DNA of 64,000 nt from the NCBI GenBank assembly GCA_900316245.1, contig ONCE01000008.1, positions 52,256 to 116,255 of the forward strand. Direction: 5' to 3'. Below, one piece after another: positions 32,235-59,146 of the stretch. The notes below the pieces were generated by a model, which saw only the letters and a program-made list of their open reading frames with translations, had not been told where the DNA came from and did no database searches. Source of the stretch: an uncultured Bacteroidales bacterium. GTDB lineage: Bacteria; Bacteroidota; Bacteroidia; Bacteroidales; UBA932. Both the position numbers and the translations under genes were made by a program. Each line of letters begins with the position of its first letter. Within the stretch, counting starts at the first letter, position 1.

Positions 32235-32276
32235 AATTTTCCATAGGTTTAGGTTTAACGCAAAGTGCTGATAGTT

Positions 32277-33822: not shown

Positions 33823-33845
33823 TGTGTAGTAGAAGGAAACCACAT

Positions 33846-41895: not shown

Positions 41896-41908
41896 CAGTC
41901 AGATAATT

Positions 41909-43024
41909 ATGGCCAACAACAATAGCCTTGGAGCAGCAAGAATGGCAAAGAACGATGAGTTCTACACCCAATATGCTGACATACAGAAAGAAATCAATGC
42001 GTATCTGGAGTATAATCCGGATACGTTCAAGGATAAAGTTGTCCTCCTGCCTTGTGATGACCCAGAATGGTCTAACTTCACCCGATTCTTTGCTCAAAAT
42101 TTCGAGCGCCTCGGGTTGAAGAAGTTGATTAGCACTTCTTTCGCTGTAGAAAGTAAGCGATATAAGAATTACGAACCTACGCTATTTGAAACAGAAAGTC
42201 CTATCTTCGATGCCGATAAAACACGCACTCACGGTAAAATCTTTGTTCTCGAAAGAGATGTCAACGGAAGTGGGCGAATTGATATAGATGATCTCCAATT
42301 TGAATACTTAGAAGGGGATGGGGATTTCAGGAGTCCTGAAGTGTGTAGGTTGAGGGACGAATCTGATGTTATCGTGACAAACCCGCCGTTTAGCCTCTTC
42401 AGAGAGTTTATGGCATGGCTGATAGAATCTGGCAAATCTTTTCTGATTATTGGCAACCAGAATTCAATTGCATACAAGGAAGTCTTCCCCCTCATTCAGT
42501 CTAACATGCTGTGGTTAGGCGCTACTGGTTATATGACTGACATGGTCTTTGCCGTGCCTAAAGGTGCTGTAGTTGATCCTAAAGACAGAGCAAAGGCTGC
42601 TAAGCTGGGTTATGTGGGTGATTATACACGGTTGGGTAATTCATGCTGGTTTACAAACTTGGACCATGGTAGACGTCATCACCCCATGATGCTTATGTCG
42701 TTTCAGGATAACCAAAGATACAGTAAGCATAAGGAATTAAGAGAACATGGGTATCGTCATTATGTAAACTACGATGCTATTGAGGTCCCTTATGTTGATT
42801 CTATTCCGTCCGACTATTCTGGCGAAATGGGCGTGCCAATTACCTTCTTGGATAAGTATTGTCCTGAACAGTTTGTGATTGTTGGCCACAGTCTACAACT
42901 GGCTGATATGAATATTATAAAGAAACGGATGGGAAAGGCCGGAGGTGGCCCCAGATTTTATGTTGAGGACGATGGTAATCTTATCCGTTTATACGAAAGA
43001 CTTGTAATCCGTAAAAAACAATAG
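41909..43024 (+). CDS. EcoRI-family adenine-specific DNA methyltransferase (second of two)
   Basis: 371 residues. Same family, NPPF at about 157, and a tandem paralogue of the preceding gene. The central region ([38 protein letters not shown]) differs strongly from it, as expected if the two enzymes recognise different sites or strands. The DUF262-HNH gene starts 2 bases after its stop. Confidence 0.85.
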
Positions 43025-43026
43025 CC

Positions 43027-44199
43027 ATGGAAGCTAAACTATACCTTGACTGGACCATCGGAGACATCTGCAAAGGTTTCCAGTACAACGAATACGAAGG
43101 CAAAGGCCTCTACGGTCTTGCAGGACGCCTGACCATCCAGCCCGAATTCCAGCGCCACTATCTGTATGCGGAAAACGGCGGCAAGAAGGAAATCGATGTC
43201 ATCCAGTCCGTCCTCAATGGCTACCCGCTGGGCCTCATCTATTTCTCCAAGGTGGGAGAAGACCGCTACGAAGTCCTCGATGGCCAGCAGCGCATCACCT
43301 CTCTGGGCCGCTTTATTACCGAGAAGTTTGCCTGGATTGACAAGGACGGCAAGCCCTGGTATTTTACCGCCTTCAACAAAGACGAGCAGGAGAAGTTCCT
43401 GAACACAAAACTCCTAATCTACGTCTGCGAAGGAACAGAAAAGGAAATCAAGGACTGGTTCCGTACAATCAATATCGTGGGTATCCCGCTGAATGCCCAG
43501 GAGACCCTCAACGCCATCTATTCTGGTCCGTTCGTGACTAAGGCCAAGGAAGAATTCTCCAATTCCAACAACACCAACATCAACAAATGGAGCTACTTCA
43601 TCCCCGGTACCGCAAGGCGCCAGGACTATCTGGCAGCAGCATTGGACTGGGTAAGTAAGGGTAATACTGAAGCTTACATGGCTGCCCACCGCTACGACAC
43701 CGACATCACAGAACTCAAGGCCTACTTCACCTCGGTTATTGACTGGATCACCTCTGTCTTCGATATGGCCCCGGAAAAAGAGATGTGCGGTCTGAAGTGG
43801 GGCGAACTCTATGAGAAATACCACCAGAAGGGCTACAACCCCGAAGAAGTAGCGGCCAAGGTAAAGGAACTCTACGAGAGTTTCTACGTCAAGGAGAAGA
43901 AGGGAATCTACGAGTACATCCTCGGTGGCTGCCAGGAACCCCGCCTACTTAACGTCCGCGTCTTTGACGAGCCTACCAAGAAAACTGTGTACCTCCAGCA
44001 GACCAATGCTGCAGAAGCCGAAGGCATCTCCAACTGCCCCCTGTGTGCCATTGGACACGATGCAAACCGCACCCGCATCTGGAAACTCATCGAGATGGAC
44101 GCCGATCACGTTACTGCGTGGAGTAAGGGTGGAGAAACCGATATCTCCAATTGCCAGATGCTCTGCAAAACTCACAATAGAGCGAAGGGCAACCGTTAA
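43027..44199 (+). CDS. DUF262-HNH endonuclease (GmrSD-like)
   Basis: 390 residues. N-terminal DUF262/ParB-nuclease-like domain with [11 protein letters not shown] and [16 protein letters not shown] (about 38-100), helical middle, and a C-terminal HNH nuclease with [18 protein letters not shown] and [14 protein letters not shown] (about 338-388). This layout occurs in modification-dependent restriction enzymes and in BrxU/GmrSD-like defence proteins. Placed directly behind two methyltransferases it is the likely restriction partner; whether it cuts methylated or unmethylated DNA cannot be told. Codons are far more C-rich than in the methyltransferase genes, so the cassette was assembled from different sources. 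Confidence 0.82.
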
Positions 44200-44219
44200 T
44201 TTTGTTTAATTGCTAAACT

Positions 44220-45119
44220 TTGAAGGAAGCCCTCATATATGTTGGCCTTGTTGCTTTAGGCGCTTTCATTCTCTATCTGATAGTCAAATCTATCATAGAG
44301 AGCATCAAGCGTGAGCAGTTCCGTAAGAAGAACCGTGAGACTCAGTTCTCGGGCAGTGCTGTAAAGGAGGAGAAAGGCTTCTGGGCAGCATTGTTTACTC
44401 CCAAGTATAGCAGCCGGGCAGAGGCCATTGGTGATTACGGAGAGAAGAGGGTATCTTCTTTCCTGGAGGATTTGGACTGCGAAGACTACAGGGTTTACAA
44501 TGATCTACTGGTGCGTAACGGGAATTACACAACGCAGGTCGACCACATTGTTATTTCCCGCTATGGCGTATTTGTGCTGGAGACTAAGAATGTTCACGGG
44601 AAGGTCTATGGCGGCGGTAATGCCGAGTTCTGGAAGCAGTATTTGCCGGACACCGGATATAAACGCTACGGCTTCACTCAGGAACATCAGTTGCGGAATC
44701 CCATCTGGCAGAATGACGGGCATATCAAGACGCTGAGGAAACTTGTATTTGGCAACGATGTTCCCGTCTATGGTATAGTTGTTTTCCCCAGCGATACCGA
44801 CATCAATGTGACAGCTGAGCAACCGGTCCTGAATATGTACAACGTTGTGCCATACATCAAGCAGTGCCGGGACGTGGTTCTGTCGTCAGATCAGATGGGC
44901 TTTTATCGCCGGCGACTTCTTGAGGTAATCTCCACATCGGAATCTGACCGCAAGGAGCATCTCGGTAATGTTTACCGCAACAAGGAACGCCGTGATGAAG
45001 CCGTTGCCAGTGGTAGATGTCCTCGGTGTGGCGGCACTTTGGTCCTTCGCAACGGAAAATACGGCCAATTCTATGGCTGTTCCAACTATCCAAAGTGTAA
45101 TTACATTTTGAACAAATAA
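44220..45119 (+). CDS. Membrane-anchored NERD-domain nuclease-like protein with zinc ribbon
   Basis: 299 residues; no ATG is available near the start, so the TTG at 44220 is used. One transmembrane helix (about 6-24), then a NERD domain (about 65-185; QVDHIVISRYGVFVLETKN carries the restriction-fold D...ExK), and a C-terminal topoisomerase-type zinc ribbon (CPRCGGTLVLRNGKYGQFYG then CSNYPKC). NERD proteins are predicted DNA-processing nucleases and recur in defence contexts. 20 bases behind the DUF262-HNH gene. Confidence 0.8.
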   Translation: MKEALIYVGLVALGAFILYLIVKSIIESIKREQFRKKNRETQFSGSAVKEEKGFWAALFTPKYSSRAEAIGDYGEKRVSSFLEDLDCEDYRVYNDLLVRNGNYTTQVDHIVISRYGVFVLETKNVHGKVYGGGNAEFWKQYLPDTGYKRYGFTQEHQLRNPIWQNDGHIKTLRKLVFGNDVPVYGIVVFPSDTDINVTAEQPVLNMYNVVPYIKQCRDVVLSSDQMGFYRRRLLEVISTSESDRKEHLGNVYRNKERRDEAVASGRCPRCGGTLVLRNGKYGQFYGCSNYPKCNYILNK

Positions 45120-45280: not shown

Positions 45281-46645
45281 ATGAGAACTCATAGATTGAC
45301 CCAAATCTTGGCCCTCAGCATTTCTGCATTGCTTCTAACGGCATGCATTAATGGAACTCCCGGTAATTCTGGGAACAGTTCCGTCAAAAGGAATACTCCT
45401 GCTGTGGCCGCCAACGATGGTAATCAAAGTAATCCTCAGCAGGCTGGTTCTGACCAAACGCAATCAAATGTAGCGCCTACCGTTCCTAATCCGGTTGTTA
45501 ATGTTTACTTGGAGACTTCTGGCAGCATGAACGGCTACGTGAATGGTGGAACTTCTATTTTCCAGCAGGTTGTCAAGGAATACCTTTCCGGGATTAATAA
45601 CGCCAATTTTGCTTCGGCAGTTAATTACAACTACATCAATAGCAAGATTATCCCCAGAGGGAATGACTTGGATCAGTATATTACGAAACTGACTCCTCAG
45701 AGTTTCTCTTCTCAGGGGAACACCGCCACGACCGATATTGGCGGCATCTTCAAAACAATCCTGGATGCAACGGATAACAATACCATCTCGATTTTCATAT
45801 CTGATTGCATTATCTCGCCTGGACGAAACAATAATCCTCAAGCGTATGCGCGTGGGCAGATGACGGACGTGCGTGATGCTATTGTTGGTTATGTGAACAA
45901 GTATCAGGATTTAGCCTGCATGGTTTATCAGTTTGATTCTGGTTTCAAAGGTACTTATTACGATTACTTGAACACGGCTCACCGGAACATTGACATGGAG
46001 CGTCCCTTCTATATCTGGGTTTTTGGCCATACAGCCCAGGTTGCAATGCTTAAGTTGAAACATGTCCCTGATAGAGATTTCCGTATCGCTCCTATCCGTA
46101 ACCAGTGGTTTATTTTCAATACTCCACTTGCTGAACTTCAGCCTGAGAACAAGTACGGCTTGCTCCTTTCAACTGGCGCGCAGAACGGTAATTATACCCG
46201 TGTAAATGCCACAACAGCAAGGGGAATCCAGAGATATGGTGAAGGATACCGCTTCTCATTTGGTGCCTACCTTGGAACCGCAGAGTATCTTATGGGCTCT
46301 GATTACATTGAGGACACGGACAATTACGTTCATCTTGTCAACAAAGCCACCAAGCAGGAATTCTATGGCGTAATTGAAAAAGACGAAGGTAGCACTTCAC
46401 CGTATACGAACATCTTCAGGGTGGAATCCCAGAATCCTTTCCAGAAAGGTCCGTTCACCCTGGCTTTTATCCCGAAGGTTCCCAAATGGGTTGAGGCTTG
46501 CAACGATGACGATGACAGAACCTTCAATGGAAGCAATAACAACAAGACATACGGCATTATAAACATCTTCAATGGTGTCTATAATGGTTTCAATAGCGGC
46601 AACCACGACAACATCCTTGCCCAGTTTGACTTCGAAATAAAATAA
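45281..46645 (+). CDS. Lipoprotein with von Willebrand A-like domain; operon gene 1
   Basis: 454 residues. Lipoprotein signal (ISALLLTAC, Cys22), a long Asn/Gln/Ser/Pro-rich linker (about 23-70), then a domain starting NPVVNVYLETSGSMNGY. ETSGS (78-82) sits where a vWA metal site has DxSxS, so the first acidic residue is Glu. TTDIGGIFKTIL and ISIFISDCIIS fit the following strands and helices of that fold. The C-terminal half (about 270-450) is beta-rich and unassigned. Displayed on the periplasmic side of a membrane, it may act as the sensor or docking part of the complex. First gene behind the operon promoter; the next starts 9 bases on. Confidence 0.7.
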   Translation: MRTHRLTQILALSISALLLTACINGTPGNSGNSSVKRNTPAVAANDGNQSNPQQAGSDQTQSNVAPTVPNPVVNVYLETSGSMNGYVNGGTSIFQQVVKEYLSGINNANFASAVNYNYINSKIIPRGNDLDQYITKLTPQSFSSQGNTATTDIGGIFKTILDATDNNTISIFISDCIISPGRNNNPQAYARGQMTDVRDAIVGYVNKYQDLACMVYQFDSGFKGTYYDYLNTAHRNIDMERPFYIWVFGHTAQVAMLKLKHVPDRDFRIAPIRNQWFIFNTPLAELQPENKYGLLLSTGAQNGNYTRVNATTARGIQRYGEGYRFSFGAYLGTAEYLMGSDYIEDTDNYVHLVNKATKQEFYGVIEKDEGSTSPYTNIFRVESQNPFQKGPFTLAFIPKVPKWVEACNDDDDRTFNGSNNNKTYGIINIFNGVYNGFNSGNHDNILAQFDFEIK

Positions 46646-46654
46646 AACACAGAT

Positions 46655-47119
46655 ATGGAATTCTTTTCACTATTCTATCAGCTCAATGTCTACGGGCAGG
46701 ATCTGTTCTACCACTTGAAGGGGTGGGATAACGGAATGCAGGACTTTGTGGCTGCGAATAACCAGTTCCCGACCATCTGGCTGGTTACATTCTTCTCCGC
46801 CTTGCTGGTGTTTGTGGTTTACTACTACATTCTGAACCATCCTCGTTTCAACAAGGTATGGCATTGGCTTATCACGATGGCGGTTCTTGCTATCGGTATA
46901 TTTATCTGGTCAAGAGGCCTTGTGATGTCCGACATTGCTGGTGTTTCCCTACATCCGGTTGACCCCGCACTCAATGTCAGCGCAGATAACGCTTTGATGT
47001 TCGGAGTTTACAATGCAGTTCTTTCTGCCATCTTCTTCCTCTTCTTCTCCATCGTGGGTAGGTTTGGAAGCAAGAACTGCAAGAATTCTCCTTGGAAATC
47101 ACTCATTAACAGGAAGTAG
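46655..47119 (+). CDS. Small multi-pass membrane protein; operon gene 2
   Basis: 154 residues with three transmembrane helices (about 45-65 IWLVTFFSALLVFVVYYYIL; 69-90; 110-140 ALMFGVYNAVLSAIFFLFF). No family recognised. Its stop lies 2 bases before the tubulin-like gene, so the two products are probably made in step; it may anchor the cytoplasmic partners. Confidence 0.7.
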   Translation: MEFFSLFYQLNVYGQDLFYHLKGWDNGMQDFVAANNQFPTIWLVTFFSALLVFVVYYYILNHPRFNKVWHWLITMAVLAIGIFIWSRGLVMSDIAGVSLHPVDPALNVSADNALMFGVYNAVLSAIFFLFFSIVGRFGSKNCKNSPWKSLINRK

Positions 47120-47121
47120 CC

Positions 47122-48564
47122 ATGGCAAAGTTATATGTATTTGGTATAGGCGGTACCGGTTCAAGAACCCTCCGCGCCCTCACAATGATGCTGGCCAGCG
47201 GTGTTGAATGCAAGTTCGACACAGTTGTTCCTGTAATCATCGACCCGGATGCTTCCGCAGCGGACATGAGCCGTACAGTGGATGCGATGACACGTTATAT
47301 GGAGGTCCGCAAATCCCTGGACTTCAATTCGGCCAACGAGAACCGTTTCTTCAAGACGGAGATTTGCCCTATTCAGGACATGTCCACGTTCAAACTCACT
47401 TTGGAGAATACCGAGAATGTCACTTTCCGTGACTATATGAAGACGAATCAGATGGACGCCCCCAGCAAGGCGCTCATCAATATGCTCTTCTCTCAGGCCA
47501 ACCTCGATTCCGATATGGTTGTCGGTTTCAAAGGCAACCCTAATATCGGTAGCGTGGTGCTGAATCAGTTCTCTACTTCTGATGCATACAAGGCCTTCTC
47601 AAACAATTTCGAGGAGGGGGATCGTGTTTTCATCATCAGTTCCATCTTTGGTGGTACCGGAGCCAGCGGATTCCCTCTGCTTCTTAAGACGCTTCGTAAC
47701 GACCAGACTTCTCAGCACTGGAACTATATCAAGAACGCCAAAATTGGTGCTGTGACTGTACTACCGTATTTCAGCGTCGAGCAGGATGACGATAGCGGCG
47801 TTGATTCTTCCACGTTCTATTCCAAGACGAAGTCGGCTCTTGCTTACTATGACAGGAATATCACCGGAAACAACTCGGTGAATGCCCTGTATTACATTGG
47901 TGACAGCATGCCGGCTACTTACAAGAATCATGACGGTGGTTCAGAACAACGCAACAATGCACACATGGTTGAGTTGTTCGCTGCACTTTCTATCTTGAAG
48001 TTCGCCGCCACACCGGATAACGAATTCGGTGAGAGGACTCAAACTTACGAGTATGGCATCGATACCAATGACGAGGACATCAAGCAGGTTATCTTCAAAG
48101 ACCTCGGTTCTGAGACTCGCCGCCTCATACAGAAACCGCTCACCATGTTCCTGCTTATGAACAAGTACATGAAGAGTTCTCTTTCTTCTCAGTATAAGTT
48201 CCAGCCCTGGGCAAAAGACTGCGGTTTGGACGAGAACTTCTTCACTTCGCAGTATTACGCCGACCTTGTCAAGTTCCAGGATGCTTTCCGCGTATGGCTG
48301 CAGGAACTGGACGACAATAAGCGTTCCTTTAAGCCTTTCGATGAAGATCGGATTATACCGCTCTTCGACCTTGTAAATGGTCAGAAGGCTCATAAGATTT
48401 TCTGGCCGCTGCACGACCTTTTCGCCAAGAATTACGCGTTGATGGATTCTTTCCTCAACACAAATTGGCCCAAATGGAACAAGACAGCCACCAAGGAACA
48501 AAAGTTCATGGAACTGTTCTATCGTGCCACAGATAAGTTGACCCTCAAGAAATATAACTTCTAA
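47122..48564 (+). CDS. Tubulin-like (Tubulin_2/FtsZ-related) protein; operon gene 3
   Basis: 480 residues. The N-terminal strand-loop LYVFGIGGTGSRTLRAL (about 4-20) and a second glycine-rich loop, SSIFGGTGASGFPLLLKTL (about 172-190), are placed as in tubulin/FtsZ-type GTPases, whose T4 signature is GGGTGS/T-G. The rest (about 200-480) is helical with no obvious polymer-contact motifs. Such tubulin-like proteins occur in bacteria beside vWA and other conflict-system genes. Predicted to bind GTP; polymerisation is unproven. Four bases before the actin/Hsp70-like gene. Confidence 0.65.
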   Translation: MAKLYVFGIGGTGSRTLRALTMMLASGVECKFDTVVPVIIDPDASAADMSRTVDAMTRYMEVRKSLDFNSANENRFFKTEICPIQDMSTFKLTLENTENVTFRDYMKTNQMDAPSKALINMLFSQANLDSDMVVGFKGNPNIGSVVLNQFSTSDAYKAFSNNFEEGDRVFIISSIFGGTGASGFPLLLKTLRNDQTSQHWNYIKNAKIGAVTVLPYFSVEQDDDSGVDSSTFYSKTKSALAYYDRNITGNNSVNALYYIGDSMPATYKNHDGGSEQRNNAHMVELFAALSILKFAATPDNEFGERTQTYEYGIDTNDEDIKQVIFKDLGSETRRLIQKPLTMFLLMNKYMKSSLSSQYKFQPWAKDCGLDENFFTSQYYADLVKFQDAFRVWLQELDDNKRSFKPFDEDRIIPLFDLVNGQKAHKIFWPLHDLFAKNYALMDSFLNTNWPKWNKTATKEQKFMELFYRATDKLTLKKYNF

Positions 48565-48568
48565 GATT

Positions 48569-51500
48569 ATGGCAAAGGTTTTCAGAATACATAAGGAAGG
48601 CTCTGGCAACATTATTGACTGGGCAAAGAGCCATTCGTACGGAGACAACGTAATCAAACAGATTACCGACCCCTTTGGTGCTAAGGCAACCAAGGAGATT
48701 ACCTCCATACCTTCGCCGTTCTCAAGAATTGATCTGGCTGTCACCGCGTTTAAGACCGTGGTTGAAGCCGGGCTTGAAGGTACGACCATCTATCATAAGA
48801 TTGTGTCCGACTGCCTTGATATTGGCGAGATCTTCTTCAATGCGGAGAATTTCAAAGACCCGCGTGACCACAGCAAGAATAAGATTGAAATTCTTGTTTG
48901 GGACCGCGCCCAGGAGATTGCGAAACTTAAGGCGTCTCCGGTAAAGGAGCATAAGATTGTTGGCGAGACTCTTGATATGTATCTTAATCAGGATGCCAAG
49001 GCCTACAACTTTGACAAGATGGACAAGGTCTATCTCCTCAACTATAAAGGACCGGACCGTAAAGACCCGCAGATTAACATCATCGGTGCCACATCGCCGG
49101 CAACGCTGTTCTTCAGCTCTGCCAACGATCTGACTTACGTTTCAGACCATCTCCGTTTCCGTAACAACGACCGTCCATTCGATTCCGAGTACACGCCCCT
49201 ATATAAACGTGACATCGAATTCCAGAAGTTCCTGTATGCGTTGAGGCTCAGTATTGGAAAGACCCAGTTTGCTGCCTTATTCGGCGCTGTGGATTCCTAT
49301 ATGGATCTCTCTTACGGTTATCTCAGCGAGGAATACAAGGCTAAGATTGATGCCCTGAACGAGGAATCCGTGGAGAATTATGAAGTTCTTACCGACGGTG
49401 GCAGCAACCGTGTTGACATCCTTGGTTATCCGGTCCGTAAACGCAATGAGACTGGTGTCATCGAAAGCGATTTCGAAATTCTGGCCACCAACAAGTGTGC
49501 TATTAAGCCTCTCGTTCTCCCGATTGAGGCTGGTAACACGTACAAGAATCTGAATTATGTTCAGGGCCAGTGGAAGGAGACTTATCAGGCCCCCATGCAT
49601 GACGATGCAGATTTAGCAAATCGTCAGCTTCCTTATGTTGGCCTGAAGTATCCTTATCTCACCATTGACGACTTCCTTGCAAGGGATATGGTATTCTTGC
49701 CTTATTCCTTCAATGCGAACGACTATTACAATGGGAATAAAGACCCCAGGAAGAGCAACAATACCTTCCTGCTCCCTCTGACAAAGACTTTCTTCAAGTA
49801 CTTCTCCGTGAATGACTTGATGGGCACGATGAAGGATGGAAAGAATATGTTCGAAATTCAGCCTCTCCAGGGAGGAAGTGTGAACGTCGAACTCCGTATT
49901 CCCATTAAGAAGGGAGGATACATCCGCTACTCCAGAATGTATGTGCCTGGAAAAGCCATCGATTTTACTGATAATTCTGGCTGCATTACTGAAAAGCAGT
50001 TCGGTCTTGGCGTGATGCCTCTTGTCCGCTTTGGGGATGGCATCCTTCCCAGTTATCGTATTGCGATGTTCAGCAAGTCGAACCGTACGGAACTGGAGTT
50101 CGCCAATGGCGAGAACACCTGCCAGATTGAGCATCACATCACTCGTCGTGAAGCCGGCCAAAATGCTTGTAGCGTAGAATCCTATGTGATGGAGCACAAT
50201 TTCGATGTTATTTACGCCACGGTTGACGGCCTTACAAACGTGATTATCCCTCGTTTCCGGAAGGCCTCCGGTGGTTCCCAGTTCACATTCGCCATTGACT
50301 TTGGTACGACCAATACGCATATCGAGTATTCGGTGGATGGATCTGCTCCTAAGGCGTTTGATATGCCGGCAGCAGAAAGCCAGCTTTGCCGTCTGAGTAC
50401 CGATTATGATGAGCAGGAAGCCATTGATATCAATGTGGCCTTTGATGAGGCATTCATCCCGTCCACTATTGGTGATGCTTCTGATTATCACTTCCCGATG
50501 CGTACCGTATACGCTGAGTGGACCGATGTCAATTACCAGCAGCACACGGAGACTCTGGCAGAAGGAAACATTCCTTTCCGCTATGAGAAGGCTCGTAACC
50601 CTCTGTATAACAAGGTTAAAACCAATCTTAAGTGGTCTAAGGCAGAGGAAGCGAATACCCGCGTCAAGTTGTATATTGAGAACCTGTTTATCATGATGAG
50701 GAATAAGGTCCTCCTTTCCGGTGGCCGCCTTTCCGATACTAAGATCATCTGGTTCTACCCGGCAAGTATGACGGAATTCCGCCTCAACGCCTTCCGTGGC
50801 GTTTGGGAGAAATTGTTTGCCAAGTACATCAATGCCAATTCTGCAGACAAACTCCTTTGCCTGTCTGAATCTGCTGCGCCTTACTTCTTCTACAAGAACC
50901 GTCGTGGTCTGACATCCAATGCTGTTACAATCGATGTGGGTGGTGGCACTACGGATGTCCTTGTCATCAAGGATGATGTCCCTGTAGCAATGACTTCATT
51001 CCGCTTTGCTTCCAACGCCATCTTTGGTGACGGCTATAACTGGAGTCCTGAAACCAATGGCTTCGTGAAGAAATACAAGGGCGATATTAATGACCGCCTG
51101 GTTGGTAACTCCATGCACCTGAAAGACGCCCTCAACGCCTATCAGGAAATCATGAATAGCGACAATTCAAGCGACATCGCAGCCTTCTTCTTCTCGTTAG
51201 CTGGCAATGCCTCCGTTGTGAAGAACCGCATTCCTCTTGACTTTATGGATATGCTCTGCAATGACACTAAGATGAAGTATGTCTTCATCGTGTTCTATGG
51301 CTCAGTGATTTACCATATCGCCAAGATGATTAAGGCCAAGGGCCTGCCCATTCCTCAGGTTGTTGCTTTCAGCGGTAACGGCTCTAAGACCCTCAATGTT
51401 CTTTCACCTTCGGACCAGACCATCTCCGAGTTTGTCACCCGCATCTTCCGTAAAGTACTTGGTGAATGCCCGGACATCCGTGTTATCAAGGAGGCTGAAC

Positions 51501-51940
51501 CAAAACTCGCTACCAGCAAGGGCGGCATCTATTACGACAACTCTTTGTCCTACGAAGGAATCGAGAAACTTCGCTTCTCGCTCCTTGGGGATGACGATAC
51601 CACCTCCACCGAAGGGAAGAAGTACAACGAGGTCAACAACGATGCTGCCATCAATGCAGTAAGCAACAATGTCAGCAAGTTCATTGATGAACTCTTCCAC
51701 ATCACCGATGCCAATAAGTTCATGGTGCGCTCCTTGGGTGCCGACCCGAGCCTGTTCGAGCAGATTCCTGAACTTTGCAAGTACAACCTCGTCGAATTTA
51801 CCCGCCAGGGCCTCAAGGCCAAGCTGAACGAACTCAGCGATTGGGGACAAGATCCGTCTGCGCCTATTGAGGAGACCATGTTCTTCTATCCAATCGTAGC
51901 CATGTTGAACAACCTCGCCCGCGAGATTAGCAATAAGTAA
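48569..51940 (+). CDS. Actin/Hsp70-superfamily ATPase with large N-terminal domain; operon gene 4
   Basis: 1123 residues. The C-terminal half is an actin-fold ATPase: phosphate-1 AIDFGTTNTHIEY (Asp577), phosphate-2 TIDVGGGTTDVLV (Asp789) and an adenosine loop VVAFSGNGSKTL (about 930). The first 570 residues contain no family I recognise and are unique to this protein class; no Hsp70 substrate-binding domain follows. It probably uses ATP to switch shape or polymerise, working with the tubulin-like protein next to it. Soluble; no signal peptide. Confidence 0.8.
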   Translation: MAKVFRIHKEGSGNIIDWAKSHSYGDNVIKQITDPFGAKATKEITSIPSPFSRIDLAVTAFKTVVEAGLEGTTIYHKIVSDCLDIGEIFFNAENFKDPRDHSKNKIEILVWDRAQEIAKLKASPVKEHKIVGETLDMYLNQDAKAYNFDKMDKVYLLNYKGPDRKDPQINIIGATSPATLFFSSANDLTYVSDHLRFRNNDRPFDSEYTPLYKRDIEFQKFLYALRLSIGKTQFAALFGAVDSYMDLSYGYLSEEYKAKIDALNEESVENYEVLTDGGSNRVDILGYPVRKRNETGVIESDFEILATNKCAIKPLVLPIEAGNTYKNLNYVQGQWKETYQAPMHDDADLANRQLPYVGLKYPYLTIDDFLARDMVFLPYSFNANDYYNGNKDPRKSNNTFLLPLTKTFFKYFSVNDLMGTMKDGKNMFEIQPLQGGSVNVELRIPIKKGGYIRYSRMYVPGKAIDFTDNSGCITEKQFGLGVMPLVRFGDGILPSYRIAMFSKSNRTELEFANGENTCQIEHHITRREAGQNACSVESYVMEHNFDVIYATVDGLTNVIIPRFRKASGGSQFTFAIDFGTTNTHIEYSVDGSAPKAFDMPAAESQLCRLSTDYDEQEAIDINVAFDEAFIPSTIGDASDYHFPMRTVYAEWTDVNYQQHTETLAEGNIPFRYEKARNPLYNKVKTNLKWSKAEEANTRVKLYIENLFIMMRNKVLLSGGRLSDTKIIWFYPASMTEFRLNAFRGVWEKLFAKYINANSADKLLCLSESAAPYFFYKNRRGLTSNAVTIDVGGGTTDVLVIKDDVPVAMTSFRFASNAIFGDGYNWSPETNGFVKKYKGDINDRLVGNSMHLKDALNAYQEIMNSDNSSDIAAFFFSLAGNASVVKNRIPLDFMDMLCNDTKMKYVFIVFYGSVIYHIAKMIKAKGLPIPQVVAFSGNGSKTLNVLSPSDQTISEFVTRIFRKVLGECPDIRVIKEAEPKLATSKGGIYYDNSLSYEGIEKLRFSLLGDDDTTSTEGKKYNEVNNDAAINAVSNNVSKFIDELFHITDANKFMVRSLGADPSLFEQIPELCKYNLVEFTRQGLKAKLNELSDWGQDPSAPIEETMFFYPIVAMLNNLAREISNK

Positions 51941-51948
51941 CAGTACAG

Positions 51949-52608
51949 ATGGATTCGAATTACTTGATTTTGATAGTCGTTCTGATTGCGGTTGCCCTTG
52001 CGCTGGTGGCCTCAGTGATTGCCTTACTTAAAGCCCTTAAGGCACTTGAGAAGAGCCGTGGTGAAAGAATTGAAAGTATTGCTAAGCGCACGGTTGAGAA
52101 CTATATGCTTCTGAATTACAATCAGAAGATTAGGAATATGGTTCATGAAGAACTGGTACGAGAGCAGCAAAAGAAAGAAGGACCTATATCGGAAGTGGTT
52201 AAGCCTGCAGAGACGGTTGTGAACGCTCCAAAGGAAGAAGAAAAGCCCGTTGAGGTTGTTCCCACCCAAGAGCCAGAAACAGAGAAGGCCCCTGTCGAGA
52301 TTTCGTTGCCGGAGCCTGTGACTCTCTACACTGGAATCTGCAAGGATGGCGCATTCAAGCACGTCACTACTGTTCCGGACAGTAAGACGATCTATACCAT
52401 TTATGCCGATAGTAAAGAGGCGGTTACCGGTATCCTCAACGTAGACCAGAGCGCATACGATAAGATTGCACAAACTCCCGACTACCTACAGAATGCCTGT
52501 GTATATAGCGGGAATGGTACACAACTCAAAGTAACCAAGACCGGTACCGTTCAGAAAGAGAACGGCACCTGGGTCGTTAAAGAGCCCATCGTGGCAGAGT
52601 TTAACTGA
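51949..52608 (+). CDS. Single-pass membrane protein with long acidic linker; operon gene 5
   Basis: 219 residues. Transmembrane helix at about 5-27 (LILIVVLIAVALALVASVIALL), a basic helical stretch (to about 75), a Pro/Glu/Val-rich linker (about 80-125), and a C-terminal globular domain (about 125-219). Arrangement resembles adaptors that bridge membrane and cytoplasm. Unknown family. Spacing of 8 bases on both sides. Confidence 0.65.
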   Translation: MDSNYLILIVVLIAVALALVASVIALLKALKALEKSRGERIESIAKRTVENYMLLNYNQKIRNMVHEELVREQQKKEGPISEVVKPAETVVNAPKEEEKPVEVVPTQEPETEKAPVEISLPEPVTLYTGICKDGAFKHVTTVPDSKTIYTIYADSKEAVTGILNVDQSAYDKIAQTPDYLQNACVYSGNGTQLKVTKTGTVQKENGTWVVKEPIVAEFN

Positions 52609-52616
52609 TAGATTAA

Positions 52617-54194
52617 ATGACAGGAATAGGTATTACCAAGTTCATCCCAGAACTGATCTTTGTTGCCATAATTGTTATTCTGCAGTTCAGGTTTTTCTTT
52701 GCAAATTCTTGGAAGAGAAACATACTGAAGAATATCTTTCCCAAGGACCTTGATGAGAAACTTAAAGTCGCTAAAGATGTAGAAGGAGTAGCCAAGATAT
52801 GGGCTTCCAACGATGTCAGCAGCACCTTAAATGATGAAATCGTTGCCCCTATTAATTCTTATCTCGAGAATAACAAAGGTGCAACAGATTATCATATCAT
52901 CAAGGATTTGACTGACCGCACTTGTGACAAGATCCAGGATGAGGTTGATTCATACAACCCCATTCCTTTGTATCTTGGCCTTTGCGGTACGATGTTGGGG
53001 ATAATCTTCGGTATCTTCTTCCTCTTTAGGGCAGGTGGTCTTGAATCGCTTTTAGCATCAGCATCATCTACCAGCACGGTATCAGGAGCGGCAGCATCAG
53101 AGGGTATTCAGCATCTTCTCGGAGGTGTTGCTGTCGCTATGATAGCCAGCTTGGTTGGCGTTATACTGACAATCATCGGCACACGTCATACCAAGGAAAC
53201 GGTCTCTGCAAATGAGGAAGGGCGCAATAAGTTTTTGTCTTGGATTCAGAGCAATCTGCTCCCCAAGATGAGCAGTGATGTCGTAAGCACGCTGGGAAAC
53301 TTCTATCAGAATCTGAATGAATTCAATAGGACGTTCTCTCAGAACTCCAAGGATTTGCAAAAGGCCTTTGAAGCCATCAAAACCGCTTATGCGGGCCAGA
53401 CAGAATACACCAAGGAGCTCAATAAGCTGGACATTGCCAAGGCCCAGATGGCCTTTGCAGCGTTGGGAAGTGCTACGGATAAGATTAACGATCTCAACGA
53501 GTTCCTAAAGGGGTCATCTCAATATCTTGCCAGCGTTGTTGCCTTGGCTAATAAGCTGGATACTGCTGATGAAAGGACAAAAGCCATCGAGCGGATGGGA
53601 CAGTTCTTCCAAAGTGAGATTGAACAGATCTCCGCACGCAAGGCCCTTCTTTCCGAAACGGTTGGTAAGATTGACCTAAACCTTAAGAACTCGCTTGACG
53701 GCCTTCAGACTTCCTCCACGGAACATGTAGGAAAACTACAGACACACCTCAATAAGGTTTATCTGGACTTCCAGGATGCCGTAGCAGAGCAGCAGAGATT
53801 ACTCGAGCAGAAACTTTCAGAATCCTCACTCTATCTTGAACAGTTCAAACGCCTTGAAACCATTCAGGGCCAGTTGGATAAGCTGCTTAAGTCCGAAGAA
53901 TTCATTGGAAAGGCCGATGCGGAGATAGCAAAACTTGATACCCAAATAGGAAGATTAGATCGAATTGAAACGGCCCTAAACCGCCTGATAGAGATTGTCT
54001 CAAAGCGACCCGCTAATGCAACCCCGGCGGTGAGAGAAGCAACCTTGTTCGATAATCCTCAACAGCCACAAGACGTGAAAGTCAAAGTTAACCTTCCTGT
54101 ACCGCGTTGGTTGGCTTTCACTACATGCGGCGTTCTCATTGCTGCCGGTCTGTTCTCTATCATCTATCCGCTATTGATAAAGTTCCTCGGTTAA
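52617..54194 (+). CDS. MotA/TolQ/ExbB-like channel subunit with long coiled coil (ZorA-like); operon gene 6
   Basis: 525 residues. Transmembrane helices at about 8-28, 115-138 (IPLYLGLCGTMLGIIFGIFF) and 163-188 (HLLGGVAVAMIASLVGVILT) carry the MotA/TolQ pattern of glycine-rich helices lining the ion path. A coiled-coil tail of about 280 residues follows (about 205-475). A further transmembrane helix ends the protein (about 498-522). ZorA of Zorya defence has the MotA part and a tail but, as far as I know, no closing membrane helix. With the MotB-like gene one base downstream it should form a proton- or sodium-driven stator. Confidence 0.75.
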   Translation: MTGIGITKFIPELIFVAIIVILQFRFFFANSWKRNILKNIFPKDLDEKLKVAKDVEGVAKIWASNDVSSTLNDEIVAPINSYLENNKGATDYHIIKDLTDRTCDKIQDEVDSYNPIPLYLGLCGTMLGIIFGIFFLFRAGGLESLLASASSTSTVSGAAASEGIQHLLGGVAVAMIASLVGVILTIIGTRHTKETVSANEEGRNKFLSWIQSNLLPKMSSDVVSTLGNFYQNLNEFNRTFSQNSKDLQKAFEAIKTAYAGQTEYTKELNKLDIAKAQMAFAALGSATDKINDLNEFLKGSSQYLASVVALANKLDTADERTKAIERMGQFFQSEIEQISARKALLSETVGKIDLNLKNSLDGLQTSSTEHVGKLQTHLNKVYLDFQDAVAEQQRLLEQKLSESSLYLEQFKRLETIQGQLDKLLKSEEFIGKADAEIAKLDTQIGRLDRIETALNRLIEIVSKRPANATPAVREATLFDNPQQPQDVKVKVNLPVPRWLAFTTCGVLIAAGLFSIIYPLLIKFLG

Positions 54195-54195
54195 G

Positions 54196-54843
54196 ATGGC
54201 CAAGAAGAAAAGAGAATCCTTTTTCTGGACAAGCTATTCGGACATGATGACGAGTCTCTTCTTCATCATGCTCACGCTGTTTGTCCTGGCCATTGCTTTG
54301 CTACACAGAGAGGTAGTTCAGATTGGGAAAGACAAGGAAGCGACGGAAGCTGAACTTCAGAAAATCAATGAAATACGTACGGCTGTTCAGAGTATTGACC
54401 CCAATTACTTCTCGTATGATCCTGCGTACAAAAAACATATTCTGAAGACCGAAGTGAAATTCCGGGCTGGCAGTTCAAATATGAATGATTTGGACCAGGC
54501 TACCCAAAATGAACTCCTCGCAGTCAGGGACACCATCAAGTCTTTCCTCGATGACCTTATTGCGAAAGATAAGAGTGCGTCATATCTTCTCATTATTGAA
54601 GGACAAGCCTCAAGGGACAATTACCCTTTGAACAACCAGCTCAGTTACGAGAGGGCATTATCTTTGTTCAAATTCTGGTTCCCTAACCAAAAGGAAACTA
54701 CGCTGCAGTTCTACAATCTTCCATGCGAGGTTGTGATTGCAGGCGCGGGCTATATGGAAGGAAAGCCTCGTGCGGCCAAGAATGAAGATAACCAACGCTT
54801 CCTGATTCAGATTATCCCCAAGCCAGGCATCATCGATGAGTAG
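54196..54843 (+). CDS. MotB/OmpA-like stator subunit (ZorB-like); operon gene 7
   Basis: 215 residues. Short cytoplasmic N-terminus, then SYSDMMTSLFFIMLTLFVLAI: the transmembrane helix of MotB/ZorB with the ion-carrying aspartate (Asp16). The periplasmic part is an OmpA/MotB-type peptidoglycan-binding domain (IEGQASRDNYPLNNQLSYERA, about 135-155). Together with the MotA-like protein it makes an ion-driven channel fixed to the cell wall. Its last 8 bases overlap the nuclease gene. Confidence 0.8.
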   Translation: MAKKKRESFFWTSYSDMMTSLFFIMLTLFVLAIALLHREVVQIGKDKEATEAELQKINEIRTAVQSIDPNYFSYDPAYKKHILKTEVKFRAGSSNMNDLDQATQNELLAVRDTIKSFLDDLIAKDKSASYLLIIEGQASRDNYPLNNQLSYERALSLFKFWFPNQKETTLQFYNLPCEVVIAGAGYMEGKPRAAKNEDNQRFLIQIIPKPGIIDE

Positions 54844-55627
54844 ACTGCTCACATACTTTCTGCTGAGCGTCGTGCTTGCGGTTAGCTGCATTCCTGCTCG
54901 TCCCAATGGGAATACGGGAAGGCAGCAGCGTCCAACTGGTGCAAGTCTGCTCGAACTGCCAGCAGTAAGGCAAGGTGAGGTTATAACTGTCCATGCCGGA
55001 TACACATCGTCGTTCAATTCAACGTTGATGATTCCAAACTGGGTTGCATACGAGTTGACAGCAGATGAATTGCAGGGGACGGTAAGGCGGCCGAGTAACT
55101 CTCCGTTCCAGCCCGATCCAGATTATCGCGGTAAGCAGCCGGACAGAAGCGATTATTCACGCACCGGATGGGATAAAGGCCATTTGGCTCCTTGTGCCGA
55201 TATGAAATGGAGCGAGCAGGCCATGTTTGAGAGTTTCTTTTTCACCAACGTCTGCCCTCAGAATCATGACTTCAATGAGAAGGACTGGCAAAAACTGGAA
55301 GACAAGGCTCGTTCCATCGCCCGGAAGAAGGGATCAGTCTTCATCGTCTGCGGACCTTTAGTGACGACCAACGAATATGGTCGGCTCGGACGGAATCATG
55401 TAGCCATTCCCGATTACTTCTTCAAGGCCTTGCTTTATAAAGACGAATCCGGGTTCCACTCTATCGCTTATGTAATGCCAAACCAGTATACAGGGAAGCC
55501 GGTAAATGAATTCGCAATGACGGTGAATGAGCTGGAGAAAATCCTTGGCATTGATTTGTTTACACGCCTCAACGACAAGATTGAGGAGGAAGTTGAGAAC
55601 CAGATGAATCTGGCCGAATGGAGATAG
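54836..55627 (+). CDS. Exported lipoprotein DNA/RNA non-specific endonuclease (NUC); operon gene 8
   Basis: 263 residues. Lipoprotein signal (LLSVVLAVSC, Cys18), then a beta-beta-alpha-metal nuclease of the NUC1/EndA family: DKGHLAPCAD (113-122; DRGH in canonical members, catalytic His116) and TNVCPQNHDFNEKDWQKLE with the metal-binding Asn. It degrades DNA or RNA without sequence preference, here outside the cytoplasm. Translationally coupled to the MotB-like gene, so it looks like the effector or uptake-processing enzyme of the complex. Confidence 0.85.
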   Translation: MSRLLTYFLLSVVLAVSCIPARPNGNTGRQQRPTGASLLELPAVRQGEVITVHAGYTSSFNSTLMIPNWVAYELTADELQGTVRRPSNSPFQPDPDYRGKQPDRSDYSRTGWDKGHLAPCADMKWSEQAMFESFFFTNVCPQNHDFNEKDWQKLEDKARSIARKKGSVFIVCGPLVTTNEYGRLGRNHVAIPDYFFKALLYKDESGFHSIAYVMPNQYTGKPVNEFAMTVNELEKILGIDLFTRLNDKIEEEVENQMNLAEWR

Positions 55628-55633
55628 TTTACT

Positions 55634-55948
55634 ATGACAAAGAAAGATAAATCCACCCTTACCATCATATACATTGCCTTGGCGTTTCTGCTGCTGCTTT
55701 GCCTTGCCAAAATGCCTTACGGCTTCTATCAGGTAGTTAGATTCTTGGCTTTCGCGGGATTCGGTTATTCGGCATATCTGCAGCACAAGGACAAGAGCAT
55801 TGACCGGATGATACTGTTCATTGTGCTTGCGCTGTTATTCCAACCTTTGTTACCAATTGCCCTGGGCCGGGTTATTTGGAATATTGTTGATGTAGTTGTG
55901 GCTGGCTACCTCATCTACCTGCTGGTAAAAATGCATCTCAAGAAATAG
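55634..55948 (+). CDS. Small membrane protein (DUF6804-like); operon gene 9
   Basis: 104 residues with four short hydrophobic helices. The pattern MPYGFYQVVRFLAFAGFGYSAYL and LFQPLLPIALGRVIWNIVDVVVAGYLI is that of the DUF6804 membrane family, whose function is unknown. Six bases after the nuclease gene; could be an immunity or anchoring protein for it. Confidence 0.65.
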   Translation: MTKKDKSTLTIIYIALAFLLLLCLAKMPYGFYQVVRFLAFAGFGYSAYLQHKDKSIDRMILFIVLALLFQPLLPIALGRVIWNIVDVVVAGYLIYLLVKMHLKK

Positions 55949-55960
55949 AAAGCGTCGCAT

Positions 55961-57379
55961 ATGTATAAGCCTCCCTACGTCATACAACCCTCTTCGCTGG
56001 ACTTCTTCGGCGATAAACTGCACGGTACCGGCAAATGGACGCTGCATAAAACGACTCATCCTTATGACAGTATCAACCATGATGCGGGAGAGGACTTTGC
56101 CTCATACAATTTCTATGAGTGGGTCGGCAAGTCTGTCAGGACGGTAGAAGACGTTCTTAAAGAAGACGCTAAACTCATACGTCCGGAAGAATACACCCCA
56201 GTCCCTTATGTCAGGAAGAAATTCGATGTCCCGCATCCGACTCAAGAGTCGGTAGATGCCATGCTTGAGAAAGAGGCTCGCAAGGCAATACTTATCTCAT
56301 TGTTTGGCAATACTGAAAAGAAGCGTCAGATGTATGTCATTGAGAGGCGTGGTAGCCGTCTTGATGAGGAAGAGAGGAAATGGATTGCTGCAAAGGAAGC
56401 ATTTGATAAGGCCGAGGACGAAAACGCTGCCGTTCACGAAGCTAAAGAAAAAGAAAAGCAAGAGGCCGCTAATGCAAAGATCGAGGAGTACAATAAAAAG
56501 CATGGGCTGAATGAGATGTTCCAGTATGCGAGTCAAGAAGAGGTCGAGCATATGCTGAAATGGATAGATCCTTTCTTCCCGTACGATTTTACGATGTTCT
56601 ATCAATTTGACATGCCTCATAAACTTGTTAATATCAGCTTTGAGGCTCCTACAGATAGAATCATTCCTCTGGAGAAGGCGGTGGTTCATTCAAGAGGCAC
56701 CTCACTTAAGCCAAAAACCAAAACGGAAGTAAACAGAGATTATCTTGATTGCGTCTGTTCTCTTGCTTATGTCATAGCAGCGAATTGCTTCGATAGAACG
56801 GCAAGGATTGACAATGTCTACATTTCGGCATATGTAAAGCGATTAGACCCCCAAACAGCAACATTTGAAGAGGATACCCTCTATGCAATAGTATTCGATA
56901 GGGAAACCTTCAATTGGGTCATTAAGCCGAAATCCTTCCTGCCGTACGAATCATTGGTCTTCTTCCCGCATACCATAGAACTGGGCGCAAGAATGAATAT
57001 TCTTCCGGTTGATCCTCTTGACCTTTCCCCAGCGGGAGAAATCCTCCCAGGGAACAATCAGTTTGTGGACACATCAAGGAAAGACGGCCGATTCCCTGAA
57101 TATGACCCGTACATCGGCGTGACTCCGGATGGAACCATAGACATTGCCTCCCTCGATGAAAGATTCGAAGAGGCTGCCAGAACTGTGGTTCTAAATCAAA
57201 GAGGGTCAACTTCTGATCTTCAGCGCAAACTTGGCCTGGGGTATGCAAAAGCAGGCAGAGTGATGGACCAGTTAGAGGCTGCTGGAATAGTCGGCCCTCA
57301 GAATGGTGCCAAGCCAAGAGAAGTCTTTGTGAAGGACATTGCCGAGCTGGAAGGAATACTATCGCATTTTAGGCGCTAA
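55961..57379 (+). CDS. Protein with C-terminal FtsK-gamma-like winged helix; operon gene 10
   Basis: 472 residues. N-terminal two thirds unassigned, with a charged coiled coil (about 140-185, EDENAAVHEAKEKEKQEAAN). The last 65 residues (AARTVVLNQRGSTSDLQRKL, YAKAGRVMDQLEAAGIVGPQ and KPREVFV) match the gamma domain of FtsK almost residue for residue in pattern; that domain reads KOPS sequences and touches XerD. No FtsK motor is attached. It could direct the machinery to oriented chromosomal or invading DNA. Last gene of the operon, 12 bases after its neighbour and followed by a phased repeat. Confidence 0.75.
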   Translation: MYKPPYVIQPSSLDFFGDKLHGTGKWTLHKTTHPYDSINHDAGEDFASYNFYEWVGKSVRTVEDVLKEDAKLIRPEEYTPVPYVRKKFDVPHPTQESVDAMLEKEARKAILISLFGNTEKKRQMYVIERRGSRLDEEERKWIAAKEAFDKAEDENAAVHEAKEKEKQEAANAKIEEYNKKHGLNEMFQYASQEEVEHMLKWIDPFFPYDFTMFYQFDMPHKLVNISFEAPTDRIIPLEKAVVHSRGTSLKPKTKTEVNRDYLDCVCSLAYVIAANCFDRTARIDNVYISAYVKRLDPQTATFEEDTLYAIVFDRETFNWVIKPKSFLPYESLVFFPHTIELGARMNILPVDPLDLSPAGEILPGNNQFVDTSRKDGRFPEYDPYIGVTPDGTIDIASLDERFEEAARTVVLNQRGSTSDLQRKLGLGYAKAGRVMDQLEAAGIVGPQNGAKPREVFVKDIAELEGILSHFRR

Positions 57380-58306: not shown

Positions 58307-59146
58307 TCATTTTCCGGCCTCCACAACTTCAGCTGCAGCAGCCCCGACCAATCTCACCAGATTAGGGAATAGGTCCAGGTCGATAATAGCTTCCAGCTCA
58401 TCAATGCTGACTTCCAAGGCCGATGCCTTCTGTTCAAAGCCGGAGAAACCATAGCTCCGATTCTCCACGATCCAGGCGTGTGCTTCATAGCGTTCCCCGC
58501 CATTGGAGTCGGCTGGCCAGTAGAGAAGCACTGCCTTGAAGAAGGCCTCCGGAACGGCAATGTGTTTCCCGGTCACGTCCGTTACCCAGTTACTGTAATC
58601 TGTGTCGATGCATCCAGTCACCACCCAAGCATTACAGGCCGATATAGCAAGCTGCTGGACATACTCCTCCAGCCAGGCCCATAGACCGCCGTTGAGGTAG
58701 GGGTCTTGCGGGGCCATATTGGTGAAATAGAAAGTCTGCTCATTCATCCCTGTCTTCAATCGGTCATTTGAAGGACACAAATGCCCACGGATGTACCCCT
58801 CCACGGAACCCATCTGGTAAGTCCGCTTCAAGTTCGGCTGCTTCTTGGTAGCCATGAATTTGTCGTACTGCCACGCACCAGAGCGAGGACCTTTGCCGAT
58901 AAGCTTCTGATTGAGCGGATATGCCACCCAGATTGGGATTAACCGATTCTGGTCCCAGAACAGGGAATAGTTCCGCTGCTTGCCCCAGTATTCATCGGTG
59001 TAGTGGGACACGAAGAAATGTTCAGGATCTTCACTGAACGATGGCAGTTCAAGCCAGCCAAGTTCAGCAGTCTTTGGAGAAACCTGGCCCGCCGCAGAGA
59101 GTGCAGCCATGGCCATCAAAAGAAAGAAAATCATCAAGCGTTTCAT
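58307..59146 (-). CDS. Secreted DNA/RNA non-specific endonuclease (NUC)
   Basis: 279 residues. Signal peptide (LLMAMAALSAAG) and NUC1/EndA fold: YIRGHLCPSNDR (catalytic His122; Arg-Gly-His retained, the leading Asp replaced) and FTNMAPQDPYLNGGLW with the metal Asn. No lipobox, so it is periplasmic or secreted, unlike the lipoprotein nuclease at 54836. It stands alone on the opposite strand, with its own promoter. Could serve nutrient scavenging or act with the neighbouring system. Confidence 0.85.
   Translation of the reverse strand: MKRLMIFFLLMAMAALSAAGQVSPKTAELGWLELPSFSEDPEHFFVSHYTDEYWGKQRNYSLFWDQNRLIPIWVAYPLNQKLIGKGPRSGAWQYDKFMATKKQPNLKRTYQMGSVEGYIRGHLCPSNDRLKTGMNEQTFYFTNMAPQDPYLNGGLWAWLEEYVQQLAISACNAWVVTGCIDTDYSNWVTDVTGKHIAVPEAFFKAVLLYWPADSNGGERYEAHAWIVENRSYGFSGFEQKASALEVSIDELEAIIDLDLFPNLVRLVGAAAAEVVEAGK

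Follow-up and report, generated by a model that had tools for sequence, protein, structure and literature searches.

In a 64,000-nucleotide stretch of DNA from an uncultured Bacteroidales bacterium of the family UBA932 (GenBank assembly GCA_900316245.1, contig ONCE01000008.1, positions 52,256 to 116,255 of the forward strand; hereafter the window, whose first letter is position 1), we find an operon of ten genes, A to J, of which the seven from A to G appear to be a conserved machine and H, I and J to be accessory. We propose that A to G together would form one trans-envelope machine. In this model, A would act in the periplasm by sensing or binding a ligand, C and D would assemble in a nucleotide-dependent manner at the inner face, and a stator formed by F and G would relay a conformational signal or force through the wall, such that periplasmic lipoprotein hydrolases, in the window the nuclease H, are recruited or switched on. 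With less certainty, we speculate that the purpose could be conflict, in which phages or mobile elements would have their DNA or proteins cut while crossing the envelope, and that J might tie the machine to the host chromosome via a host-matched FtsK-gamma domain. Taken as a whole, with the conflict purpose and the chromosomal tie included, we hold this reading with slightly less than even confidence. Conserved gene order, invariant functional residues, recurrent exported hydrolases, a motif that they share, conservation of the A-J block and an integrase-bearing island argue for it; stator activity, NTPase assembly and coupling to the hydrolases are what we infer.

An original prediction for this operon, made from the letters of the window, had described ten same-strand genes with gaps of 1-12 bases or short overlaps, and an open reading frame check confirmed this layout at 45281-57379: all ten frames lie on the plus strand, with gaps of 1-12 bases and an overlap of 8 bases between G and H. 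One match to a relaxed promoter-like pattern stands upstream at 45173. Treating all ten genes as a unit did not survive comparison with other loci, as H, I and J are accessory and a full J was seen only in the window and at one other locus, L033. For this comparison we used 81 loci, namely the best 80 of at least 544 from a profile scan of named genomes together with a Prevotella oral taxon 299 locus from a plasmid collection (L030); many are metagenome bins, and a few are titled as other phyla and are perhaps misbinned. Cultured carriers such as Flavobacterium akiainvivens, Maribacter antarcticus and Winogradskyella thalassocola are represented among the named loci of the scan. At E <= 0.01 the core genes were matched in 79 (A), 79 (B), 81 (C), 81 (D), 65 (E), 65 (F) and 55 (G) of the 81 loci, counts that take in loci at contig ends, and their usual order is A-B-C-D-E-F-G. 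When loci are restricted by sequence length, A and B are present in 69/69 with enough upstream DNA, and among the 64 with enough downstream DNA, F and G occur together in 50, F alone in 8 and neither in 6, with E in 50. Scattered homologues were the outcome that the original prediction had set against itself; the neighbourhood is instead strongly conserved across the 81 loci. Because the order recurs in loci with divergent C (39-61% identical, one at 96%, and two more at 33%), chance gene order can be ruled out.

Profiles and motifs agree with the earlier assignments of C as tubulin-like, D as actin/Hsp70-like, F and G as Zorya/MotAB-like, H as a nuclease and J as carrying FtsK-gamma. Its description of A as a vWA lipoprotein stands in part. 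A alone has no match in Pfam, PADLOC or NCBIfam; a motif resembling a metal ion-dependent adhesion site (MIDAS) is present in an alignment of 36 sequences that includes the window's, with E78, S82 and D175 in 36/36 and S80 in 33/36. A Pfam VWA match appears in one of the 36 (VWA_CoxE, weak, 0.0016), and a profile search of PDB sequences returned one poor match (0.14) and no vWA chain. A is likely vWA-like, judging from the E-x-S-x-S motif and the later Asp. C, with 480 residues, matches Tubulin_2 at 4.5e-8 (33.2 bits, cut-off 27) and Tubulin at 3.5e-4, and its loop reads [IV]GGTG[SA]R in 10/10 aligned sequences, with FGGTG also in 10/10; its profile found no match among PDB sequences. D is much larger (1123 residues), and its profile matches to FtsA, MreB and Hsc70 are weak. 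The window's D carries the motifs DFGTTNTH, IDVGGGTTD and FSGNGS, which we take to be phosphate-1, phosphate-2 and adenosine motifs. D577, G579, T580, D789, G791, G792, D796, S935 and G936 are each found in 33/33 aligned D sequences, the window's included, and G793 differs in two of the 33 rows. In an AlphaFold2 model of D (mean pLDDT 85.9, pTM 0.75; residues 1-48 poor), the phosphate motifs lie among strands at 572-589 and 785-801. These fixed phosphate motifs, together with the weak profiles, identify D as an actin/Hsp70-like protein at the level of sequence. C and D are without membrane segments; B and E have them.

F and G bear the hallmarks of an ion-driven MotA/MotB-type stator, with an ion-binding Asp and a peptidoglycan-binding domain in G. 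In a PADLOC scan, G matches ZorB at 2.6e-13 and F weakly matches ZorA at 3.6e-5, and the NCBIfam scores for the pair are 27.2 bits against a cut-off of 400 and 16.2 bits against one of 190. Asp16 in the transmembrane segment of G, found in 30/30 aligned sequences with the window's among them, corresponds to the conserved transmembrane Asp of MotB/TolR/ExbD-type B subunits, and against the PDB, G matches the MotB-related 8vvn (1.3e-15) and the ZorAB entry 8qyd_F (2.7e-8). F contains a GLxGTxxG stretch, presumably a MotA/TolQ/ExbB-type motif, in which G121, T125, G128 and G132 occur in 28/28 aligned sequences (window included); its profile matches mostly generic coiled coils in the PDB, with ZorA at 0.0011.

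The genes that follow the stator vary, and exported hydrolases recur among them. We defined this slot as the genes, up to 4 on the same strand and at distances of no more than 300 bases each, that follow the last E, F or G gene found, a rule that also takes in a few missed core genes (L045, L082). An exported hydrolase is present in the slot of 43/60 loci having a same-strand gene directly after the machine. Proteases occur in 40/60, either trypsin-like (25) or retropepsin-like aspartyl (15) and never both in one locus, and nucleases (SNase, DNase I-like (EEP) or NucA-type) in 17/60; three slots have a nuclease and no protease. Pfam matches on 140 downstream proteins comprise Trypsin_2 (25), gag-asp_proteas (15), SNase (7), Endonuclease_NS (6) and Exo_endo_phos (6), and none of these five ranks in the top 25 families for 150 flank proteins, where rarer matches are possible. 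The hydrolase profiles were built from slot genes, such that the slot counts follow by construction and rarity is tested only by the flank and control counts: the profiles match 8/515 flank open reading frames, which may include opposite-strand NucA-type genes near the operon (as in L052), and 1/302 control frames from 20 stretches of the carrier genomes. With either strand allowed, a hydrolase lies within 2.5 kb in 35 of the 46 loci where G is followed by 1.2 kb of sequence (protease 30, nuclease 20). In four of the 11 misses (L048, L063, L066, L091), the start of a trypsin-like frame overlaps G by more than 40 bases, and seven of the 46 show no hydrolase. The window's slot is occupied by H, which matches Endonuclease_NS at 1.1e-50 and is matched in 10/81 loci; its DKGH motif at residues 113-116 bears out the original choice of His116. 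The earlier picture of an exported nuclease within an envelope-spanning, ion-driven machine holds for the make-up of the operon, and the nuclease idea is strengthened by the fact that three unrelated exported nuclease folds share one slot; across the loci, a protease is the commoner slot gene.

Slot hydrolases share more than position. A lipobox is found in 47/60 of them, though in only 1/6 of the DNase I-like ones. The ten residues after the Cys have a mean net charge of +2.8 in slot lipoproteins versus -0.5 in 37 control lipoproteins, and at least 3 basic with at most 1 acidic residue after the Cys occur in 31/47 versus 3/37, where the Cys is the last fitting one in the first 75 residues for slot proteins and the first fitting one in residues 15-41 for controls. 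Hydrolases of different fold in one locus can be alike after the Cys, as in CARRSRNVR/CARKRSNVS (L106) and CGRKSGRMV/CTRKSGPNA (L072). Same-locus N-terminal likeness has a mean score of 10.9 versus 2.4 for shuffled partners (5e-5, n=8 pairs, some from related taxa); both the charge and the permutation statistics ignore kinship. Either the machine reads this basic motif as a tag, or signal regions have been shuffled between genes. Surface export of lipoproteins is described as needing a net negative signal in Capnocytophaga and, by consensus, also in other Bacteroidetes (PMC5080379). Because the slot motif is basic, the slot lipoproteins would be expected to stay in the periplasm.

J consists of an N-terminal part and an FtsK_gamma domain (8.5e-24), and a Pfam scan found no FtsK motor in it; the genome has another, 807-residue FtsK frame. 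Over 45338-57070, up to a point just before the gamma domain, the A-J block of the window is 80% identical in DNA to that of L033, and the shared J is 61% identical over 467 residues. The rest of the window has no match to L033, for which only about 1.2 kb of sequence is available to the right of J. The gamma domain of the window's J is 88% identical to that of its own host's FtsK and at most 72% to those of the 20 other FtsK proteins compared. We placed the two J gammas in a tree with 21 FtsK gammas, a sample drawn from the window's family except for L033's host. The J of the window groups with the FtsK of its own host (support 1.0), and the J of L033 groups with that of its host at 0.965, sitting on a long branch (53% versus 48% for the next). 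These two cases suggest that the gamma of J was replaced by host sequence, and FtsK-gamma of J is most simply regarded as host-derived. Since the J gamma matches the FtsK of its own host in both cases, J probably has to read host DNA motifs. The N-terminal part of J was found in 1/199 genomes of the family and 2/296 of the phylum, own genome counted, and it has no match in phage or plasmid records. At L058 a gene of 266 residues upstream of A matches the J profile, and beside the L033 operon (L162) lies a 542-residue frame related to the N-terminal domain (34% over 83-354) in which no gamma match was seen. I, the other accessory gene, matches DUF6804 at 1e-28 and is matched in 10/81 loci.

Relatives of the operon are patchily distributed. 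C was found in 13/395 genomes of the phylum and 24/393 of the order, own genome counted. It has no match in phage records and matches six records of the plasmid collection; against viral contigs, C as a single sequence gave no match and the C profile gave three loci. Two of the viral-labelled loci (L186 and L187, from IMG/VR) carry a divergent A-B-C-D-F-G operon with C 33% identical, a NucA-type gene second after G, and an upstream protein of 108 residues that resembles DUF6804 by eye; these contigs may be mobile elements rather than viruses. A more remote locus, L029, combines an OmpA-family protein (1.2e-16), a vWA-like protein (A profile, 2e-3), tubulin, an actin-like protein and a MotA-type protein (4e-5; MotA_ExbB just below cut-off). 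A, C and D, but neither F nor G, are matched in two loci of cyanobacterial plasmids, and in L021, L025 and L026, also with no F or G match, that place is taken by another protein, which has WG repeats or matches SH3 weakly. We also observed, at L028, a tubulin beside a large second protein and three paralogues that we take to be TerD-like, with no stator match; at L023, a degraded copy with tubulin in two frames, no actin-like match, and A, B, F, G and an aspartyl protease remaining; and, near the operon end at L051 (14486-15061) and L025 (17501-18112), proteins that are presumably L,D-transpeptidase-like.

The window's copy lies in a mobile island, as the original prediction had it. GC content is 0.54-0.56 left of about 31.6 kb and 0.43-0.49 from there to the contig end, and an integrase lies near this edge. 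None of the five other genomes that the order search lists for the window's family yielded the tubulin gene. Because of these three observations the island claim holds, with its right end outside the data. A transposase with Pfam rve and HTH_21 at 62990-63937 is presumably of IS3 type. Between integrase and operon lie an AAA_25 ATPase, a DUF6371 protein, an amidase and the restriction-like cassette that the original prediction placed beside the operon, which is real: it holds two EcoRI-type adenine methylases in tandem, together with a GmrSD_N-HNH protein and a zinc-ribbon NERD nuclease, and looks like an unusual restriction or modification-dependent system. Elsewhere, a gene that we label tyrosine-recombinase-like from its sequence lies upstream of five copies, three copies sit behind purE/purK-like genes, and three occupy one shared Prevotella/Prevotellaceae neighbourhood. 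Since recombinase-like genes are near some copies and others are in fixed synteny, the system is partly mobile and partly settled. Other genes of the region include a 1110-residue protein with no Pfam match adjoining the integrase (33822-37154), a second exported-looking Endonuclease_NS gene just past the operon (58307-59146, minus strand, 5.7e-34) and, left of the island edge at 26355-30383, three consecutive genes for a BACON-domain protein, a Peptidase_C10 with Spi-type propeptide and a metallophosphatase. The features are collected in Table 1.

Table 1. The operon, its integrase and the neighbouring cassette, with positions in the window.
Feature	Position	Strand	Basis
A: lipoprotein with vWA-like MIDAS motif (E-x-S-x-S, later Asp), core	45281..46645	+	motif counts, 69/69 loci
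B: small membrane protein, about 3 hydrophobic segments, core	46655..47119	+	locus survey, 69/69 loci
C: tubulin/FtsZ-like GTPase (Tubulin_2), core	47122..48564	+	Pfam, motifs
D: large protein, C-terminal actin/Hsp70-like ATPase motifs, core	48569..51940	+	weak profiles, motifs, AlphaFold2 model
E: protein with one transmembrane segment, variable linker, conserved C-terminal domain	51949..52608	+	alignment, 50/64 loci
F: MotA/TolQ/ZorA-like stator subunit, long, probably helical tail	52617..54194	+	profiles, motif
G: MotB/ZorB-like subunit, transmembrane Asp16, OmpA-like peptidoglycan-binding domain	54196..54843	+	profiles, PDB matches, residue count
H: exported lipoprotein nuclease (Endonuclease_NS, DKGH), variable hydrolase slot	54836..55627	+	Pfam, motif
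I: DUF6804 membrane protein, accessory	55634..55948	+	Pfam, 10/81 loci
J: N-terminal domain of no assigned family (about 1-374) and FtsK-gamma winged helix	55961..57379	+	Pfam, gamma tree
Tyrosine integrase near left edge of island	32265..33677	+	family scan; GC step
Defence-like cassette: two EcoRI-type methylases, GmrSD_N-HNH, NERD nuclease	40765..45119	+	family scan

The division set FtsZ-FtsA-FtsK has a tubulin plus actin-like pair, and the operon resembles it in this pair and in the FtsK-gamma of J; it differs in that J has no FtsK motor match, D has 1123 residues and the genome has a separate FtsK. A further likeness is found in operons of FtsZl1, vWA and OmpA proteins, for which Makarova and Koonin predicted a role in membrane remodelling in 2010 (PMC2875224). 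These are described as having a divergent tubulin-like gene, in the majority beside a vWA gene, with membrane proteins, an OmpA-family protein in several genomes and a patchy presence in many phyla, and a Bacteroides caccae protein appears in the FtsZl1 alignment (PMC2875224). C does contain a divergent FtsZ-tubulin domain, assigned by Pfam PF13809 (Tubulin_2), which we do not equate with FtsZl1, and an OmpA-family protein is at hand, as G matches MotB/OmpA-type structures and the partner at L029 is OmpA. However, FtsZl1 proteins are said to be mostly long with a coiled coil and a helical C-terminal domain, compared to the 480 residues of C, and their loop is GGGTG(S/T)G, which differs from [IV]GGTG[SA]R in its first and last position (PMC2875224). 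With this loop in 10/10 aligned C, we do not class the operon as FtsZl1 proper. In the main text of that paper MotA, TolQ, Hsp70 and nuclease occur 0 times, and the passages found there name no actin-like operon partner (PMC2875224). GTPase-centric systems with tubulin, vWA or HSP70 were read by Kaur et al. in 2020 as NTP-driven conflict systems (PMC7159879). Tubulin and extracytoplasmic vWA genes occur in them, some are said to combine tubulin with HSP70, the two are also listed as non-overlapping themes (firmicutes and actinobacteria), and trypsin effectors occur in related systems (PMC7159879). Among the window's ten proteins, Pfam, NCBIfam and PADLOC scans found no GTPase other than the tubulin and no GAP1 or FNIII, with no GAP1-specific model searched; the stator pair is a further difference, as MotA and TolQ occur 0 times in that text (PMC7159879).

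Zorya couples ZorAB to nucleases (PMC11890865), and the operon is like it in having a MotAB-type pair, a peptidoglycan-binding ZorB-like protein, a ZorA-like, probably helical tail and a nuclease partner. It differs in its tubulin/actin/vWA-like core and exported nuclease, and PADLOC found no match to ZorC, ZorD, ZorE or ZorF with ZorG in a scan covering the ten proteins and not their neighbours in the window. Without a C, D or E partner among the ten, we rule out membership of Zorya. Lastly, vWA force transducers on TolQ-like motors, driven by the proton motive force, have been proposed, also in Bacteroidetes (PMC12204202). These couple a vWA fold to a TolQ/MotA-type motor, but there the vWA domain is tethered by its own transmembrane helix (PMC12204202), while here we find a vWA-like lipoprotein, a separate MotB-like subunit and an NTPase pair. 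The operon thus combines elements of FtsZl1 operons, GTPase conflict systems, vWA transducers and Zorya, and belongs to a kind that is known but uncharacterised. It departs from Zorya and from the GTPase systems in a defining feature each, for the latter the TRAFAC/DO-GTPase with GAP1, and from FtsZl1 in the loop motif; what is new is that one unit unites MotAB with an actin-like partner and with exported hydrolases. The original prediction that no named system has the full set needs amending, as the kind has been in print since 2010 and 2020, while no published description of the stator-bearing branch was found in a literature search with little reach into subscription journals.

Several observations weigh against the reading that A to G are a machine firing hydrolases in conflict. 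F and/or G are missing from 14/64 loci, the ZorA matches of F are no stronger than its matches to other coiled-coil defence proteins, and a protease is commoner in the slot than a same-strand nuclease (40/60 versus 17/60). PADLOC families number 58 among 150 flank proteins versus 27 among 139 control proteins, with 25 families listed for each and generic ATPases and helicases among them, an enrichment too weak for any strong defence-island association, which we reject; among the families listed, type I and III restriction enzymes are in the flank list only. Defence genes do not usually sit in settled synteny. The originally predicted attack on phage or mobile DNA is not borne out by such weak enrichment and by copies in settled synteny, and we regard a defence role as plausible. 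A bolder version, that this is a new type of envelope immune machine in which a tubulin-actin pair, a peptidoglycan-anchored ion motor and vWA sensors would fire tag-recognised, swappable periplasmic hydrolases while the host-replaced gamma of J would read chromosome motifs and so tell self from entering DNA, strikes us as rather unlikely.

It is also possible that the operon remodels the envelope, as a second divisome-like or Tol-Pal-like apparatus that would bend or constrict it, with the hydrolases as clean-up enzymes. Membrane remodelling was proposed for the related FtsZl1/vWA/OmpA operons (PMC2875224), and the combination of tubulin, FtsA-like protein and stator mirrors the division/Tol set, in keeping with the weak FtsA and MreB matches of D and the settled synteny of some loci. 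We consider this unlikely, while far from negligible: presence is patchy (13/395 and 24/393 genomes), the context in the window is mobile, and remodelling alone hardly explains nuclease partners of three folds. Envelope stress or quality control might instead be the purpose, the stator sensing damage and the machine regulating periplasmic proteases, with nucleases as alternative effectors or scavengers. That proteases are the commonest slot gene (40/60 loci) fits this model, as does the settled synteny in several loci, yet three slots, and the window itself, have a nuclease and no protease, and the distribution is again patchy, leaving it quite unlikely in our view. Swappable lipoprotein hydrolases with a shared N-terminal motif, behind a conserved motor, could also point to an apparatus for export or antagonism that carries them to the surface, to neighbours or to outer-membrane vesicles. 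We think this highly unlikely, given that the 25 of 96 downstream families listed show no conspicuous outer-membrane channel or constant immunity gene and that the basic motif is the opposite of the surface-export signal (PMC5080379). Least probable of all is that H, I and J are island passengers without a link to A to G, as might be supposed because H and I are each found in 10/81 loci and the full J in one locus besides the window, with a second exported nuclease gene nearby (58307-59146). Against this stand their overlapping or few-base spacing in both the window and L033, the conservation of the A-J block between the two, and the recurrence of hydrolases in the slot. The recurrent slot hydrolases and the NucA-type gene in L186 and L187 rule out H as a one-off passenger.

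With the trans-envelope machine as our preferred reading, an orphan neighbourhood becomes a testable machine, in which a bacterial tubulin and an actin-like ATPase would be wired to a flagellar-type motor and exported enzymes. The shared lipopeptide motif and the host-matched FtsK-gamma offer specific and cheap predictions. To our knowledge, few defence systems act in the periplasm. If the proposal is true, the control of periplasmic enzymes would be tied to cytoskeletal NTPases and ion-driven stators.

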